Position numbers and translations under genes: made by a program. This document shows positions 2,476 to 36,915 of a DNA stretch of 38,019 nt, one piece after another (position 1 is the first letter of the stretch; each line of letters begins with the position of its first letter). Below the pieces are notes generated by a model that worked only from the letters and a program-made list of their open reading frames with translations, searched no databases and was not told where the DNA came from. Source of the stretch: a virus; IMG/VR virus record IMGVR_UViG_3300020020_000101, positions 1 to 38,019 of that record; one strand, 5' to 3'.

Positions 2476-2999
2476 TGCCCGCAAGACTCACCGCTCGGTG
2501 CGAGCAGTGTGATGTCAAGATCGAGTTCGACGATGACACCACCTCCTGGCTCCACCTCTTCCCCTCAGCCGGCTGCACCCATGCCTGGCCCCAGGGTGTG
2601 GAGCATCCCCTAGAGGACGAGTTCTTCGAGCGAGCGGATTTTGTTCGGATGATGCGGGGGGGTCGGGTATCAGCGACTCACCCCGCCCGCTCCAGCGAAG
2701 TTCGACGCACCCAGCACGACATCGCCCGACTGGAGCGACGGCTGGAGCTGCTCAAGACCTTCCCCGAAGATGACCCGTTCGACGACGGGGATGTCATCCA
2801 GTTCACCCGGCGCCTTGGGAACACCAACTACTCCTACGTAGGTCTCCGGCACAACAGCCGGTGGTACCTCACAGGCAAGCTCAACAAGACGCCCAAGAGC
2901 TGGGGCGATCTGGTCAAGATGCTCACCGACGGTAACCTCGTGAGCAAGGTCTGGTTCGTCTACCAGTGGGAAGAGATGGTCGTGGGGGAGAACGTCTGA
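2475..2999 (+). CDS. Hypothetical protein with N-terminal CxxC and C-terminal alpha/beta domain, 174 aa
   Basis: ATG at 2475 overlaps the previous stop (TGATG), preceded by AAGGAGGGG. The N-terminus has CEQCDVKIEF and later GCTHAW, a plausible zinc site. A helical stretch follows (RRTQHDIARLERRLELLKTF). The C-terminal part (DGDVIQFTRRLGNTNYSYVG through SWGDLVKMLTDG and KVWFVYQWEEM) resembles small domains widespread in actinophage early genes, where function is unknown. It is TGATG-coupled to the next gene. Confidence 0.65.
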   Translation: MPARLTARCEQCDVKIEFDDDTTSWLHLFPSAGCTHAWPQGVEHPLEDEFFERADFVRMMRGGRVSATHPARSSEVRRTQHDIARLERRLELLKTFPEDDPFDDGDVIQFTRRLGNTNYSYVGLRHNSRWYLTGKLNKTPKSWGDLVKMLTDGNLVSKVWFVYQWEEMVVGENV

Positions 3000-3199
3000 T
3001 GTGGAAGCTCACCTGGTACAGCTACCAGGTTAAGAAGACCAGCGAGTTCCCCACCAAGAACGCAGCGCTGTTCTTCGCTGCCAATGGAGAAGCCGACGGC
3101 CACATGTGGGCCGACGACCTCACTACTCCAGAAGGTCTACTCATCCAAGACGAAAAGTTCCGAAAGTTGCTTCGCCAATACCGAGGAGATGAAGAGTAA
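2999..3199 (+). CDS. Hypothetical protein, 66 aa
   Basis: Not recognised. ATG at 2999 overlaps the previous TGA. The protein begins MWKLTWYSYQVKKTSEFPTK and contains several aromatic residues, then GLLIQDEKFRKLLRQYRGD. It has no transmembrane segment or Cys pair. It overlaps the next start as TAATG. Confidence 0.55.
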   Translation: MWKLTWYSYQVKKTSEFPTKNAALFFAANGEADGHMWADDLTTPEGLLIQDEKFRKLLRQYRGDEE

Positions 3200-27602: not shown

Positions 27603-28432
27603 CAGACCCACGCGTCCTGGAACTTCACCCGCCACGGCGAGTTGCCAGTGGTCCCGGTTCGTGAATAGGTGATGTTGTTGACGCCTGGCCAAAGCTTGGG
27701 CCACTGGTTGTCAGTGCGGACCCAGTCATACTCGTCAGCACCAGCAATCGTCACCGTACGGTAAAGGGTGTCGATGATGAGAGTAGACCCAGCGCTCAAG
27801 CTTCCATCTAGGCGAAGGGTGGCATTGCCGTCCTGAGAGAACGCGACTCGGGGGTTAACCGTCGGCCCATCGATCTCCACGATCGGATAGCTGCCCCCGT
27901 TGAACAGACCATCGTTCGTAGCCACGATGCCATTGTTCGTGGACCCAGCGTTGATCTGCCCTGCCACTACCTTCTGAGTCAGGCTATAGATGCGAGGGTC
28001 AGCAGCGAACAGCCGACCTGATACCTTGACAAACCCTCGACCAACCTCGTAGTCACTGGGGATATCCAGGTCACGAGGCCTGACATAGATGACCTTCTTC
28101 CCAGGTAGCCCAGCCTTCTGGAACACGAAGGGGATCTCAGCAGTCATCGGCTGCCATGCCTGAGACAGAGCCAAGATCTCTACGTTCGCCTGAGCTGCGT
28201 TGGCACAGTCGATGTCGAGGTGAACCTCGATGAGCTTAGATGAGACATAGTCGTCACCAAGGAAGGCGCCGTGGTCAGAGTCTCGCTCATGGTCATTGCT
28301 CTTGTTGCCTCGACCCCAGAGATTCAGCACACTTCTCGCGTACCGAGCAGGCTTCGACCAAGGCCCATTGTTGAACAGGATACCCTGGAACTCGTACTGA
28401 CCGTCTCGGTAGATTAGGTCGCCAACGGCCAT
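27602..28432 (-). CDS. Distal tail (Dit-like) minor tail protein, 276 aa
   Basis: ATG 28432 overlaps the tape measure stop (TAATG). The N-terminal domain has HGAFLGDDYVSSKLIEVHLD (change of ring orientation seen in siphovirus Dit proteins) and PFVFQKAGLPGKKVIYVRPR. The C-terminal galectin-like half has GGSYPIVEIDGPTVNPRVAF and GSTLIIDTLYRTVTIAGADE, the usual phage tail component pattern. The protein sits directly downstream of the tape measure, the standard Dit position. It forms the adaptor ring at the tail tip. Confidence 0.8.
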   Translation of the reverse strand: MAVGDLIYRDGQYEFQGILFNNGPWSKPARYARSVLNLWGRGNKSNDHERDSDHGAFLGDDYVSSKLIEVHLDIDCANAAQANVEILALSQAWQPMTAEIPFVFQKAGLPGKKVIYVRPRDLDIPSDYEVGRGFVKVSGRLFAADPRIYSLTQKVVAGQINAGSTNNGIVATNDGLFNGGSYPIVEIDGPTVNPRVAFSQDGNATLRLDGSLSAGSTLIIDTLYRTVTIAGADEYDWVRTDNQWPKLWPGVNNITYSRTGTTGNSPWRVKFQDAWV

Positions 28433-31086
28433 TAGGTGTACAACCTCACTCTCTTCTGGTACATGATGTCCTTGGAGATCTCCATGGAGGTCTTCTGGTC
28501 AGCTCCTGTGACCTTGATGTCGTCGTTGTAGTTGTTGTTGGTAACCCCTCCGCCAGCAGCACCCACCCCTGCTCCAGCGCCAGCCATGGCCATTGCTGGG
28601 ACGACGCTGGGGCCGAACTTGTCGAAGGTCATGGAGTGAAGCTTGGCCATCTCCGATCCCATGTCGTAGTTGAAGCCCTTGGTGTACGCGAGCAAGTCCA
28701 TCAGCGCGTACTCGATCTTGGTCTTCGGCGAACCAAACAGCCCCTTCTTGAACCCTTCCCAGGCAGACTCACCGATGGACTTGAGCTTGTTGAACAGCTC
28801 TGTCCTGAGGTTGGATAGCGCGTCGATGATCTGACGAGGGAGCCCCTTGATGAAGCTCAGTAGAGCATCGAACCCTGCCTTGATCCCATCGTAGGCTCGG
28901 TAGCCAATGCCATGCATGGTCTGCCACAGCAAATCCCAGAGGGAGTTCACTGCAGCGATCACGTTGCCCGGGAGATCCTTGAAGAACTGAAGTGTGTTGT
29001 TGAACCACTGCTTCACCACTTCGATGGCAAGGTCCTTGCCTCTCATGAAGTTGGCGTAGGTCTCGTCCCAGAGCTGGTTCACGAAGGTGATGACGCGGCC
29101 AGGGAGAAGCCGGAACCACTCAATGACACCTTCTACCAAGTCCTTGATGAACTCAAGAGCCATTGCCCTGAAGCGGAAGAACCTGTCCCAGCCTCCGTCC
29201 CAAAGCTCGTCCAGGAAGGTGATGACTCGACCAGGCAGCTTCTGGAAGAACCCCACGATCGACTCAATCGCTGAGTGACCTAGCTCAACAAAGGTCATGA
29301 ACGACTTGGCAATGGACTGAAGGATGAAGCCCAGCAAGAACGCTAGAGCACCTGCCACTCGCTCAGGCATCTGACTGATTTCGTGAACTGCCTTGCCCAG
29401 GAACTCGACCACCAGTTCCGGGATACGCGAGATGAAGGCTACAACTTGGCCGGGGATCGATGCCATGAAGGAGATGAAGCCGGCAATCGCTCTTCCCACA
29501 CCAACGAAGAAACTCGCCACAGCGCTGACTGCGCCACCCAACTTCTCACGAAGGTCCCTGGCGAAGTTGAGGATCAGATCCCACCCTACCTGGAAGTCCT
29601 GCCACGTCTGGTCGACGAGCTTCCGGAAAGGCTCCCACTTCTTGTAGAGAATGAACAGGCCTGCCCCGATGGCTACAATGGCAGCGATGACTAGGCCAAT
29701 CGGGTTAGCCAGCATCACGGCCCAGAGCGACTGTATGGCAGGGATCAGTGAACCTTGGATTGCGTAGCGAACGGCGAAGAGGGCGAACTTGAGCTTACCC
29801 AGGATCTGAGTAAAGCTCACAAAGCTGGAGATCCACTTCATGGCTCCAGCAATCTGCTTCGCTAAGGCAATCCACTTCAGCACCTGTCCGATGAAGATGG
29901 ACATAGCACCGAACGCCGTGAAGAACGCGGCAGCATATGCCAGCGTCTTCATGATGGTCTTCTGTTGCTCCTCAGGGAGGTCAGCGAAGGCCTGGACCAA
30001 CTTAGTGAGCGACTGAGTCCACTCACGCAGCTGCTCCTGGAACGGCGTACCCGCCGTGATGAGAAGCGTCTCGATGTTGGACTTCAACTTCTCAATGTCG
30101 CCAGCAAGGTTGTCAAGCTTTGCCTCAGCCACCTCAGTAGCAGACACCCGACCAATAGCGTCAGCATACTGGTCGAAGCCCTTGGCACCCGCTTCCGCCA
30201 TGAACAGGGCCGAGGCCATGGCTCGCCGTTGGAAGATGACGTTGAACGCCTGAACCCTCTGCTGCTCAGAGAGGTTCTTCGTGGCGTCCCCGAGGATCTG
30301 CATGACCTCCTTCATGCTCTTCATCTCGCCCTTGGCGTTGAAGAACTGATTGGTGCCATCCTCAGTGATGAGGCCCAGCTCCTTCATCATCGCTGCGGCC
30401 TTCTTAGAGGTAGGCGCTAGCGAGAGGAGCACACCGCGCAGCGATGTGCCTGCAGTTGATCCACGGATGCCTCGGTCACCGAGGATCGCCAGTACCGTGT
30501 TCATCTCGTCAATCGAGACGCCCATGGCCTTGGCAGTACCACCGGCATACCGCATCGACACAGCCAAGTCTTCAACCTCTAGGGTCGATGCATTAGCCGC
30601 ACCTGCGAGTGAGTCAGCCACGTGATCGAGCTGGTTTGCCTCGAGACCAAAGGTCTTCATGGCGTTCACGGCGATGGTTGCCGCGTCTTCCAGCTTCATG
30701 TCCCCAGCAGCAGCTGCCAGGGAAGCCACGCCCCTCGCTGCGCCACCAGTGATCTGCTCGATCGTCAGACCAGCCTTGGCAAGCTCCTCGATGCCCGCCG
30801 CAACTTCTTGAGCACCGAACTTGGTGTCTTGGCCGATCTGCAGTGCCAGCTTGCGAACTGGCTCCATCTGAGCGGCCGTCTTGCCAAGAACGGCGCCAGC
30901 TGCGTCGATGGTCTTCTCGAAGTCGGCGGCAGCCTTGACAGCCACACCAAACCCTGCGGCTGCCGCAGCGCCGATGCCCAGCAGACCCTTGCCTACGGAG
31001 GTAAATGCCGCCCCTGCCCGAGTGAGATCAGTGGTGTCAATCTCAATCGTGCCCTTAGCGTGGCCTAGGTTGTAGGTGGTAGGCAG
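28432..31086 (-). CDS. Tape measure protein, 884 aa, probable CTG start
   Basis: The tape measure sets tail length. The N-terminal segment encoded upstream of GTG 30945 reads YNLGHAKGTIEIDTTDLTRA then SVGKGLLGIGAAAAAGFG, typical of tape measure starts, so the gene must begin near 31086. The frame has no ATG, GTG or TTG there, but CTG 31086 has AGGAGGAG 4-5 bases upstream. The phage-tail family domain follows (MRYAGGTAKAMGVSIDEMNT, GIRGSTAGTSLRGVLLSLAP). Hydrophobic segments occur near 400-490 (NPIGLVIAAIVAIGAGLFIL). The C-terminal third has repeats of about 43 residues marked by LPGRVITFLDELWD and LPGRVITFVNQLWD. Starting at GTG 30945 would give 837 residues. Confidence 0.85.
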   Translation of the reverse strand: MPTTYNLGHAKGTIEIDTTDLTRAGAAFTSVGKGLLGIGAAAAAGFGVAVKAAADFEKTIDAAGAVLGKTAAQMEPVRKLALQIGQDTKFGAQEVAAGIEELAKAGLTIEQITGGAARGVASLAAAAGDMKLEDAATIAVNAMKTFGLEANQLDHVADSLAGAANASTLEVEDLAVSMRYAGGTAKAMGVSIDEMNTVLAILGDRGIRGSTAGTSLRGVLLSLAPTSKKAAAMMKELGLITEDGTNQFFNAKGEMKSMKEVMQILGDATKNLSEQQRVQAFNVIFQRRAMASALFMAEAGAKGFDQYADAIGRVSATEVAEAKLDNLAGDIEKLKSNIETLLITAGTPFQEQLREWTQSLTKLVQAFADLPEEQQKTIMKTLAYAAAFFTAFGAMSIFIGQVLKWIALAKQIAGAMKWISSFVSFTQILGKLKFALFAVRYAIQGSLIPAIQSLWAVMLANPIGLVIAAIVAIGAGLFILYKKWEPFRKLVDQTWQDFQVGWDLILNFARDLREKLGGAVSAVASFFVGVGRAIAGFISFMASIPGQVVAFISRIPELVVEFLGKAVHEISQMPERVAGALAFLLGFILQSIAKSFMTFVELGHSAIESIVGFFQKLPGRVITFLDELWDGGWDRFFRFRAMALEFIKDLVEGVIEWFRLLPGRVITFVNQLWDETYANFMRGKDLAIEVVKQWFNNTLQFFKDLPGNVIAAVNSLWDLLWQTMHGIGYRAYDGIKAGFDALLSFIKGLPRQIIDALSNLRTELFNKLKSIGESAWEGFKKGLFGSPKTKIEYALMDLLAYTKGFNYDMGSEMAKLHSMTFDKFGPSVVPAMAMAGAGAGVGAAGGGVTNNNYNDDIKVTGADQKTSMEISKDIMYQKRVRLYT

Positions 31087-31087
31087 C

Positions 31088-31901
31088 TTACTCCTCCTCT
31101 CTGTTCAGGAACTCATCCACTCGGGCGTCTTCCTCCTCGAACCTCTGCAAGGTTGCTGGATCACGGAACTTCGGTCCACCCGCCTCGCCAGCGAAGGTTT
31201 TGTGCAGCAGGCGCTTACGTCGACTCTCTACGTACTTCTTGACATCACCCTTGTAGCGCTTGGGGGGTTCAATCGCCTCCAGATCCGCTTTCAGGTTGTT
31301 GCCGAACCACGCAATAGCCTCGTCAAGGCTGTATGCGATGTAGCTACCTCTTGGCAGCCCGAGGAGCTCGCTTGGCCGGACGTTCCACGTTTTGGCCAGT
31401 AGATAGAGACTCCATGAGCTCACCTTGCTGCTCACGAAACCGGTCGAGGTCGCGGTCCCCCCCAACCGCCCAGTTGAAGATGAACATCTTGTCAGCCTCG
31501 TCCACCTCGTCAATGAAGATGAGTTCTTCGAGCTGGCGCTCCCGCTCGTCCTCCGACAGCCCTTCATCGGCCATGATCTCTTCTCGCCTGGAGACCGGGT
31601 AGACCTTCGGCTGGACAACGCAGTACAGCGTGATGGCATCCACCATCCCGAGCATGTCCTGCATCTTCTTCGGATCCTCCAGGATGTCACCCAAGCCCTT
31701 CTGGAGGTCCTTGTCGGCGAGCTTGCCGTCAGCTGCCTTGTTCATCATCCCCATGAGCGAGTTCGGGATGAGTCCTTGCTTGGCGAAGGACATGACGCCA
31801 GGTCGAATGACCAGGGCGGTATTGCCACTGGGAAGGTCGAGTGGGCCCGCCCCCCCAGCCTTCTTCCACTGCTTGGCGGTTGATACCTTGCTATCTGACA
31901 C
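31088..31901 (-). CDS. Tail assembly chaperone long form by +1 or -2 frameshift (about 270 aa)
   Basis: The long product starts at GTG 31901 in the frame of the short chaperone and changes frame at a run of seven G (31463-31457 on the - strand, within GTT GGG GGG GAC). The second frame then reads TSTGFVSSKVSSWSLYLLAK, TWNVRPSELLGLPRGSYIAY and SLDEAIAWFGNN, a clear match to the C-terminal half of siphovirus G-T chaperones (LAKTW.VRPSELLG). It ends at TAA 31088. The shift relative to frame 0 is +1 (equal to -2), not the commoner -1; the -1 frame meets a stop within about ten codons. It helps load the tail tube protein onto the tape measure. Confidence 0.8.
31344..31901 (-). CDS. Tail assembly chaperone short form (lambda G-like), 185 aa
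   Basis: GTG 31901 follows AAGGAGGCCAA. The protein contains SGNTALVIRPGVMSFAKQGL, LGDILEDPKKMQDMLGMVDA and ITLYCVVQPKVYPV, then an acidic stretch, typical of actinophage tail assembly chaperones placed between tail tube and tape measure. In frame it continues past the slippery run to end PAKRAPRAAKR. Together with the frameshifted long form it gives the usual G/GT pair. Its leader shares the block GGAGCCCTA(A)GGAGGCCAAGTG with the gene at 23999. Confidence 0.85.
   Translation of the reverse strand: MSDSKVSTAKQWKKAGGAGPLDLPSGNTALVIRPGVMSFAKQGLIPNSLMGMMNKAADGKLADKDLQKGLGDILEDPKKMQDMLGMVDAITLYCVVQPKVYPVSRREEIMADEGLSEDERERQLEELIFIDEVDEADKMFIFNWAVGGDRDLDRFREQQGELMESLSTGQNVERPAKRAPRAAKR
31457..31463 (-). 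other. Seven-G slippery run for programmed frameshift
   Basis: On the - strand GGGGGGG in GTTGGGGGGGACC. Read GTT GGG GGG GAC in frame 0; P-site Gly-tRNA can re-pair with GGG after a +1 or -2 slip. Confidence 0.75.
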
Positions 31902-31939: not shown

Positions 31940-32476
31940 CTAGACGATCGCCGCAGCGGTCTCGTTGCGGACGATGTCGTACAGCTTGTTGGTGGCGTCG
32001 GGGATGGCGATGCCGGAGCACGAAGTGATCCAGAACGCGCCCTGCCCCATCTCGCCCTCGATGGCATCGTTGACGCGGGCCTTGTAGATGACGACGTGGA
32101 AGTCGCCTCCCGAGTCGCTGATGGCCTGACCCTCAATCTTGAAGTAGGGTCGAGCGTCGGTGCCAAGCTTGGCCATCGTGGTCTTGCGGTTGGGGGTAGT
32201 GCCAGTCGACGTCAGGATGCCTCCGCTGAAGACAGCCAGGGCTGCCAGCGAAATGCCACCTTCCTCGAGCTCCCACTCCACGGTCGGGCCCTGGCCACGA
32301 ACTGCGGCGAGAGCGTCGTCACCTCGGAGCTCCTCGAACTCCTCGGCTTCGCTGAAGGTCAGCGTCTGAGCGACAGGCAGGTCAACTGCCGTGCCCAAGA
32401 CCCCTGCCGCGTTGTACGGCGTAATCTTGACGTCACGCAGTCCGTACGGCAGTGTCGGGTCGGTCATTGCGGCCAT
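31940..32476 (-). CDS. Major tail (tube) protein, 178 aa
   Basis: ATG 32476 follows GAAAGGAAA; ATG 32467 is an alternative. The sequence PYGLRDVKITPYNAAGVLGT, then AVDLPVAQTLTFSEAEEFEE and RGQGPTVEWELEEGGISLAA is typical of siphovirus tail tube proteins (LG-x-x-v-d-l-p-x-x-x-x-l). Late motifs include FHVVIYKARVNDAIEGEMG. It lies upstream of the chaperones and tape measure, as expected. It polymerises around the tape measure into the tail tube. The gene is followed by a short leader with repeated ribosome-site sequence. Confidence 0.85.
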   Translation of the reverse strand: MAAMTDPTLPYGLRDVKITPYNAAGVLGTAVDLPVAQTLTFSEAEEFEELRGDDALAAVRGQGPTVEWELEEGGISLAALAVFSGGILTSTGTTPNRKTTMAKLGTDARPYFKIEGQAISDSGGDFHVVIYKARVNDAIEGEMGQGAFWITSCSGIAIPDATNKLYDIVRNETAAAIV

Positions 32477-32666
32477 GCGCAGGTTTCCTTTCGGGGTTTC
32501 GGTACTTGTGGGTTGACAGGAAAGCGCCTGTCTCGATGTTGAAGCGGTGTCGAACGACGATCCCTGATCCCGCCCCACACAGCCTGCTGCTGCAAGCGAC
32601 TTCCAGCGTTGTGGCGTCGAGCATCACGCCCTGCAGCTTGCCATCGCACCGGAGCTCGTGGGTCAT
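32433..32666 (-). CDS. Small Cys-containing conserved phage protein, 77 aa
   Basis: ATG 32666 gives CDGKLQGVMLDATTLEVACS, then SRLCGAGSGIVVRHRFNIET, a pattern seen in small proteins that many actinophages carry in the tail gene region: two Cys followed by G-x-V-V-x-H-R-F. It probably binds zinc. Function is unknown. It overlaps the tail tube start by 44 bases, so its C-terminus (NPERKPAHGRNDR) is read in a different frame from that gene's N-terminus. Confidence 0.65.
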   Translation of the reverse strand: MTHELRCDGKLQGVMLDATTLEVACSSRLCGAGSGIVVRHRFNIETGAFLSTHKYRNPERKPAHGRNDRPDTAVRTA

Positions 32667-35293: not shown

Positions 35294-36550
35294 TTAGGCG
35301 TACGCGGCGGGGATGGTGTACGTGCCGGACACGGTGATCTGCATGACCACCCCGGCGCCCCGGTGACGGATGCCCGTGCCGAAGCCGTGGAGGTAGTACG
35401 AGTCGGTCAGGGGGTAGTCCCCGTCACGACCACGCACCAGGCGGAGACCCCGCAGGGCGGAGTTCTCGTGCTGGCGGAGGCCCACCAGGTTGCCGATCTG
35501 GCGCTCGCCACCCGACGCCGTAGCCACCACGTAGCCAGCGGGGATGTAGTCATCCTCGACGACGACGAAGGGACCGTAGGTGCCGATGGTGACGAGACCC
35601 GGGATGCCCGAGTCCTGCGGGCGAGCGACAACGCCCCCGTTGGCGGGGAGGTAGATGCCGCCTCCCACACCCTGCGAGGGAATGAAGTCGTACGTGGCCC
35701 CGGTGGCGACCCGGAAGGTCTTGATGACCGCCCCCTGCGCCGGGTTGACCAACAGAAGGAGCTTGTAGCCCGTGTTCTGCGAGTAACCGTGGTGCCGGAG
35801 GTGGACTTCCAGGTCGGTCATGTCGCCGGCGTCGATGGTCGCAGCACCCGACGTGATGTAGTGGGTGTGGGTGCTGAGGTGCGTCGTCGCCTTGTAGGCG
35901 GGAGGCACCGTGCCGTCAGCGTTGTACAGGGCGTAGACGTTGACCGCCTGCTCGTTGATGGTGGCCACTCGGTTGACGTTGTTGAAGATGGCCCGAAGGA
36001 TCTTCGTGAACATCAGCCGGTTGTCTGCCTCGAGAGCGGTGTTGTTCAGCGCCTGCAGCTGCTGCTGGGTCGACTCCGCCAGGAACATCCACGTGTAGCG
36101 GATGGCCAGGTCGTACCACTTGAAGTCGTAGCCCATGTTGAACGACACACCCAGACGAACGCCCTTCGGCTCTCCGTACTCCGACGCTTCCTCGAAGTCC
36201 TCCTGCGAGGGGTAGCGGACCCGTTCGACCGGGTTCGTGACGTCGAAGGTGAAGTAGTTGACCAGGACGTTGCGCTCCCGGTTCCAGATGTTGATGGTCC
36301 GCTGGAACTCGGTCCACATCTGGTTGAGGTCGGCCCCGTCGAGGGTCTCCCGGATGATGTCGGCGGTCTCGTTGTAGCCCCGCTCACCGGCGATGAGAGC
36401 CTCGTTGCCCTGGAGCTGGTCCAGGACCTGAGCCATGAGGGCTGCAGAGATGGCCCGGTGAGGGGTCATGCCCTTGAGCTTCAGGGTCTCGAGGATCACA
36501 CCGTCGTCGGGCGTGGCCAGCTTGCGCTCCATCAGAGCGAGCCCGGTCAC
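35294..36550 (-). CDS. Major capsid protein, 418 aa
   Basis: Large late protein between decoration protein and connectors. It has an N-terminal helical part (RERNVLVNYFTFDVTNPVER, YDFKWYDLAIRYTWMFLAES) and a long beta-rich body with DMTDLEVHLRHHGYSQNTGY, KLLLLVNPAQGAVIKTFRVA and GIPGLVTIGTYGPFVVVEDD, as in HK97-fold capsids of actinophages. ATG 36532 is an alternative start; GTG 36550 is chosen because it overlaps the previous stop (GTGA), the rule elsewhere here. It follows a scaffold gene, so no maturation-protease fusion is needed. Identity rests on size, order and pattern. Confidence 0.8.
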   Translation of the reverse strand: MTGLALMERKLATPDDGVILETLKLKGMTPHRAISAALMAQVLDQLQGNEALIAGERGYNETADIIRETLDGADLNQMWTEFQRTINIWNRERNVLVNYFTFDVTNPVERVRYPSQEDFEEASEYGEPKGVRLGVSFNMGYDFKWYDLAIRYTWMFLAESTQQQLQALNNTALEADNRLMFTKILRAIFNNVNRVATINEQAVNVYALYNADGTVPPAYKATTHLSTHTHYITSGAATIDAGDMTDLEVHLRHHGYSQNTGYKLLLLVNPAQGAVIKTFRVATGATYDFIPSQGVGGGIYLPANGGVVARPQDSGIPGLVTIGTYGPFVVVEDDYIPAGYVVATASGGERQIGNLVGLRQHENSALRGLRLVRGRDGDYPLTDSYYLHGFGTGIRHRGAGVVMQITVSGTYTIPAAYA

Positions 36551-36915
36551 GAGATCGCCGCCGAACAACGAAGAACCAGGCGCGTGGCTTCCACCGTCCA
36601 GCCGATGGGGACGTGGGTGGCGTCCACAGCAGCCGAGGAGATGGTGCCATCGGTGGTCAGGGCGGTGTACTTCGTCCCTGCCACACCAGCGAACTCCACG
36701 AGTTCGCCAGCCGTGATGATGTCGACGATGTCGCCAGCAGCCAAGCTGCGAGGCTGACAGACGACACCGATGACTCCGCTCTGACCCGCTCCGGGGACAG
36801 CTCGGCCGTTGACGTCGATCCCGAAACCCTTGGGGGTTGCGGAACCGGTCCATGCACCGGCGAGCTTGGCCCGGACCACGCCAATGGCGGATTCGGTCTT
36901 GTCGACCCTTGCCAT
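36547..36915 (-). CDS. Head decoration protein-like, 122 aa
   Basis: ATG 36915 follows GGAAAGGACAAAG. The small beta-rich protein contains QSGVIGVVCQPRSLAAGDIV, DIITAGELVEFAGVAGTKYT and HVPIGWTVEATRLVLRCSAA, the pattern of DUF2190/cement-type decoration proteins, which stabilise the capsid. It lies between scaffold and capsid, where lambda gpD-like or DUF2190 genes are often found. Its stop is coupled to the capsid start (GTGA). Confidence 0.7.
   Translation of the reverse strand: MARVDKTESAIGVVRAKLAGAWTGSATPKGFGIDVNGRAVPGAGQSGVIGVVCQPRSLAAGDIVDIITAGELVEFAGVAGTKYTALTTDGTISSAAVDATHVPIGWTVEATRLVLRCSAAIS

Follow-up and report, generated by a model that had tools for sequence, protein, structure and literature searches.

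The window, by which we mean the whole stretch of 38,019 nt analysed here (IMG/VR record IMGVR_UViG_3300020020_000101), comes from an uncultured phage of the actinobacterial type and carries a tail gene order as expected around a tape measure protein (TMP), the protein that sets tail length: the major tail protein (MTP, phrog_4971), the G- and T-type tail assembly chaperones (phrog_4336 for G), the TMP and a Dit-type gene (phrog_5577/33). The TMP product is matched by 41 PHROG families, the best at 3e-98 over residues 21-484, and the majority of the 25 matches listed are tail tape measure families, including phrog_1533 at 3e-98. The T frame was assigned both by its position and by its motif; on the minus strand it overlaps the G frame in a +1/-2 relation. 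Many relatives have a T frame without a start of its own, as expected under programmed frameshifting, and the chaperone frameshift of phage Send513 is annotated as -2. Coordinates of these features are collected in Table 1.

Table 1. Features of the tape measure region in the window
Feature	Position	Strand	Remarks
TMP gene as read from CTG	28432..31086	-	884 codons, CTG read as Met; ORF call allowing CTG, and PHROG tape measure families
Putative start codon CTG	31084..31086	-	aligned with ATG/GTG/TTG in some relatives and ATC/ATT in others
Shine-Dalgarno AGGAGG	31093..31098	-	6 nt 5' of CTG; duplex energy with the anti-Shine-Dalgarno -12.0 kcal/mol
In-frame TGA, upstream bound of the TMP frame	31105..31107	-	sequence reading
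Codons of the conserved N-terminal motif YNLGHAKGTIEID	31036..31074	-	sequence, translation and relatives
GTG, first canonical candidate start	30943..30945	-	rejected; a start there would remove the conserved N-terminus
T-type tail assembly chaperone frame	31088..31690	-	TAA at 31090-31088, 1 nt before CTG; TMP in the +1 frame
G-type tail assembly chaperone, phrog_4336	31344..31901	-	T frame reached from G by a +1/-2 shift
MTP ORF, phrog_4971	31940..32578	-	bait for relatives and control gene

The TMP frame on the minus strand reads TGA(31107-31105) ACA GAG AGG AGG AGT AAG CTG(31086-31084) CCT ACC ACC TAC AAC CTA GGC CAC, and the translation across this region is '...MSS*TERRSKLPTTYNLGHAKGTIEID...'. 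From the TGA to the motif YNLGHAKGTIEID none of ATG, GTG, TTG, ATA, ATC and ATT occurs, and CTG is the sole near-cognate codon. The stretch AGGAGGAG (31098-31091) ends 4 nt 5' of this CTG, and the T frame ends one base upstream of it. The first listed canonical start, GTG 30945, stands 47 codons inside the conserved part. The initial annotation had noted that the conserved N-terminus is encoded upstream of this GTG, that no canonical start lies between the in-frame stop and that N-terminus, and that CTG 31086 follows AGGAGGAG by 4-5 bases, and rereading of the sequence and its translation bore out all three statements. Its further proposal, that the gene apparently starts at CTG, gains support from the relatives described below, in which ATG, GTG or TTG sits at the same spot and the Shine-Dalgarno at the usual distance.

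Start codons of the tape measure gene in related phages

Among 50,697 phage records we found no nucleotide relative of the window, and all protein relatives of its TMP there were below 60% identity. Relatives were gathered from viral contigs by means of the TMP, the MTP, the capsid protein and the coded N-terminal motif, and the comparison of start codons that the initial annotation had recommended was carried out on them. In nearly all, the motif (typically Y(N/D)LGTA.G.I.ID) is preceded at a distance of 2-4 codons by ATG, GTG or TTG. An N-terminal profile found 178 rows in 122 clusters, with a canonical codon within 12 codons in most (ATG 63, GTG 45, TTG 5, none 9). For 102 of the 122 clusters the distance from the nearest canonical codon to the motif was 2-4 codons (74 at three, 19 at two and 9 at four), and the CTG of the window, four codons before the motif, thus fits the place of the start. 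The nine clusters without a canonical codon include one that is not a TMP (L229) and one probable remnant (L227); of the 66 clusters reached through the MTP, one (L148) had none.

When N-termini were gathered by the motif alone, 62 of 67 distinct ones had a canonical codon no more than ten codons away; the other five, each behind a Shine-Dalgarno, carried ATC (L148, L149, L155, L156) or ATT (L192). Searching for ATH at the third codon before the motif returned 13 stretches. Twelve of them lack a canonical start: L148, L149, L156 and L192, and eight contigs of a single lineage with ATT. That lineage splits into two variants, which have 72-73 differences in 800 nt and have both kept the ATT. The noncanonical neighbours share their second codons with ATG relatives (ATC GCC GAC, ATT CCT GAT), and close pairs display the switch itself: ACG in L183, L157 and L298 against ATG in L302, and ATT in L192 against ATG in L245. 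It had been stated initially that an ATG in relatives would refute a CTG start; this does not hold here, because intact genes of other relatives have ATC or ATT at that place, in one case as an ATT lineage of eight contigs.

Seven further clusters are ambiguous, having ACG (L183, L298, L157), ATC (L261, L250, L033) or TCG (L162) at the aligned codon and a GTG further up that overlaps the Shine-Dalgarno in six and overlaps or adjoins it in all seven. In L183, L298, L157, L261, L250 and L162 this GTG is the only one nearby and overlaps the Shine-Dalgarno sequence (GGAGGTGAGTCCG or GGTAGGTG). These seven TMPs were kept outside the strict count and inside the comparison of Shine-Dalgarno strength. 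On a tree of 107 MTP proteins, from which L192 is absent and whose bootstrap is unsettled and deep forks uncertain, the six strict noncanonical rows required six changes, and eleven changes were required when the ambiguous rows were added; the noncanonical TMP cases stand apart from one another on this tree. Another kind of change was seen in L154 (Predator) and L201 (Konstantine), where the TMP start has apparently shifted upstream to a GTG eight codons before the motif, and the usual place is occupied by TCG.

In cultured phages, all 19 TMP starts read (10 + 9), Firecracker apart, were ATG, GTG or TTG; Firecracker, which we examined because of the paper on mycobacteriophage Corndog, is the sole one of the cultured phages read that shows a noncanonical TMP start. 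A search of viral sequences for CTG at the third codon before the motif found 0 stretches, and a wider search for a Shine-Dalgarno followed by CTG gave 102 stretches with 40 in-frame matches, none of which passed the filter of a long downstream and a short upstream frame. We accordingly rejected the idea that CTG itself is a recurrent choice at the TMP start. The scan of genome contigs for prophages yielded three stretches (L227, L228, L229), the latter two unrelated. L227, from Cellulomonas sp. APG4 (2850-3000), is an isolated TMP-like N-terminus behind ATA; it was dropped as a prophage TMP and is probably a remnant, no tail genes having been seen around it and its continuation being unrelated. 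In a draw of 396 genomes from its phylum, L227 itself was recovered along with two weak matches. We found no report of recurrent noncanonical TMP starts in the open-licence literature.

Control genes and ribosome-binding sites

An equal test was applied to three genes by asking whether ATG, GTG or TTG occurs within 20 codons before the conserved N-terminal motif, counting distinct genes at 90% identity and leaving out 14 MTP ORFs without the motif and one TMP ORF. No canonical start was present in 8 of 116 TMP genes, 0 of 91 MTP genes and 1 of 22 genes for the small head protein (L207, ATA). The TMP count includes the window and two ATT-lineage rows found by the targeted scan; the contrast with MTP has a Fisher p of 0.0099, and after those three rows are dropped (5/113) it has a p of 0.067. 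Since this value is not significant once the discovery-biased rows are removed, the excess over MTP rests on few cases.

A broader control flagged 107 ORFs. Sorted by eye, these were 15 TMP rows, a large number of T frames (as expected, since T is reached by frameshifting), shadows that were antisense or out of frame, and a single real case, L207; because of this sorting by eye we preferred the narrower test. The broader control also has lower sensitivity where a second start comes early in the gene. When 5 of 115 TMP genes were compared with the other families, for which the flags as read leave one real case among roughly 500 distinct genes, p was 0.001, and when every flag of the other families was counted as real, p was 0.022. 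The absence of a canonical TMP start exceeds chance when set against the 0 of 91 of MTP, with the TMP-MTP contrast alone at the above-mentioned 0.067 after removal of the discovery-biased rows. The share of ATG among canonical starts was 61/108 for TMP and 76/91 for MTP (p 5e-5); a low share is not special to TMP, because the small head protein had 11/22. The small head protein of L207 (contig IMGVR_UViG_3300015371_000387), a homologue of window 36547-36915, reads ACC AAG ATA GCC AGA ATC GAC; it has no canonical start and carries ATA where its relatives have ATG, GTG or TTG.

The Shine-Dalgarno was stronger before noncanonical TMP starts than before canonical ones (median -10.6 vs -7.8 kcal/mol; n=14 vs 106; p 0.042); the 14 are 7 strict and 7 ambiguous rows, and the p value is rough, the rows being related.

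The probable CTG start and its rivals

We consider it highly probable that the TMP of the window is initiated at the near-cognate codon CTG 31086, a triplet from which ribosomes seldom initiate. What makes this the most likely reading is that canonical starts are lacking, together with the orthologous position of the codon, the Shine-Dalgarno and its spacing, the intact coding frame and the recurrence of near-cognate codons in relatives. The strong AGGAGG would place initiator fMet-tRNA on the CTG, which would then be decoded by the initiator tRNA, and ribosomes leaving the T stop may plausibly be delivered to it through termination coupling. The initial Met would be removed before Pro, the primary product being (M)PTTYNLGHAK. 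It may be conjectured that, with so weak a codon, TMP output is reduced or becomes IF3-sensitive; against a lowered output, the Corndog authors saw, in the available part of their article, no obvious fall in TMP expression (PMC4351075).

The strongest competitor, which we regard as improbable, is that the C recorded at 31086 reflects an error of sequencing or assembly, or else a minority variant, and stands in place of a genuine ATG, GTG or TTG. The window is a single metagenome record with no close relative among the records searched, a single base change would give a canonical start, and CTG stands at the aligned place in no other phage searched. However, all 884 codons form an intact frame, and errors do not explain the near-cognate codons of other intact TMP genes, one of which occurs in eight contigs. 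Consensus base errors are, moreover, rare.

Still less likely is that frameshifting or stop readthrough extends T into the TMP, so that a start codon is unneeded. In every group T usually stops near the TMP start. In four strict cases (L156, L220, L192, L155) T and TMP share one frame with a single stop between them, and readthrough may occur in these; the shared frame was found in 8/13 strict and ambiguous rows against 27/87 canonical ones (Fisher p 0.057), the T motif search having missed L149, L155, L033 and 19 canonical rows, of which L149 and L155 were read directly. The window, however, showed neither a shared frame nor a slippery site: readthrough alone gives no T-TMP fusion, because T ends in TAA and the TMP lies in the +1 frame, and no slippery re-pairing was seen at GAG GAG TAA. 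Nor do all of the relatives fit, T of L149 being out of frame and that of L148 being followed by two stops. Also against an extension, the Shine-Dalgarno is kept and is stronger than usual, and the peptides of Corndog start directly after its ACG, according to the part of that paper available (PMC4351075).

Translation from GTG 30945 with the upstream homology left untranslated is the least credible of the alternatives: a standard gene finder would pick this codon first, but the 47 codons upstream hold the conserved N-terminal segment of the family. TMPs of related contigs share this motif, so that a start at the GTG would delete a conserved segment; the relatives start before it, and the strong Shine-Dalgarno sits at the CTG.

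Known noncanonical starts and the biology of the tail operon

The closest known system is that of the mycobacteriophages of Cluster O. As given in the accessible portion of the Corndog paper (PMC4351075), the Corndog TMP has no canonical start and carries ACG in place of ATG, its virion peptides begin right after this ACG, and in 2015 the authors left both ACG initiation and ribosome bypass open. In the Firecracker record (L329, 2865-3534), 223 codons from the stop contain no canonical start and codon 18 onward reads ACG GCA ATA CAT ATA GAC; this ACG, which fits the Corndog virion peptide, is preceded by a GGGGTG-type Shine-Dalgarno (-8.2 kcal/mol), and the GenBank TMP begins from a GTG 618 nt downstream. 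The window resembles Corndog, Firecracker and YungJamal in having a TMP without ATG, GTG or TTG from the upstream stop to the N-terminus and a noncanonical codon where relatives have ATG, and Firecracker also in having a Shine-Dalgarno-like sequence (GGGGTG). It differs in its codon, CTG as opposed to ACG, and in gene arrangement, since an HNH gene lies between the chaperone and the TMP in the Corndog type, whereas T abuts the TMP in the window. The Corndog start is moreover backed by virion peptides, and that of the window is known from sequence. Among relatives of the window ACG occurs in L183, L298 and L157, which are ambiguous owing to the GTG inside the Shine-Dalgarno. The non-tryptic peptide of Corndog begins at the Ala after ACG, as expected from removal of initiator Met before Ala, and we consider that this evidence favours initiation over bypass.

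Two other systems are comparable in part. Streptomyces sigR starts at GTC behind AGGAGGTG, its repression by IF3 having been shown with mutants, and infC starts at ATC in Streptomyces and at ATT in E. coli (PMC5472188). Like the window, sigR combines a noncanonical start, a very strong Shine-Dalgarno, an actinobacterial setting and a gene pair with translational coupling, which is putative in the window; unlike the window, sigR and infC are host regulatory genes. ORF10 of the Bacteroides phage phiB124-14 is likewise a phage ORF with an assigned CTG start; this phage is, however, unrelated, the start is assigned by annotation, and the excerpt of the article draws no link to a tape measure (PMC3338817).

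For a TMP gene that lacks a canonical start, Corndog is a published precedent. The window and its relatives bear on the question left from 2015, namely how translation of the Corndog TMP begins, and the sequences support near-cognate initiation behind a Shine-Dalgarno over ribosome bypass. PTTYNLGHAK is the predicted virion peptide of the window TMP. Standard gene finders assume ATG, GTG or TTG, and the conserved N-terminus is consequently lost from such proteins, as in the late-starting GenBank TMP of Firecracker. More speculatively, and with considerable doubt on our part, the TMP gene of this large group of phages might be a site of repeated start codon decay (from ATG, GTG or TTG to ATC, ATT, ACG or CTG) that is held by a strong Shine-Dalgarno and chaperone coupling. 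The tail operon would then have a recurrent weak-start design under selection, and Corndog would have been its first, unexplained, sighting. If this is true, the weak start could set the level of the TMP against that of the chaperones, or could sense the IF3 state of the host.
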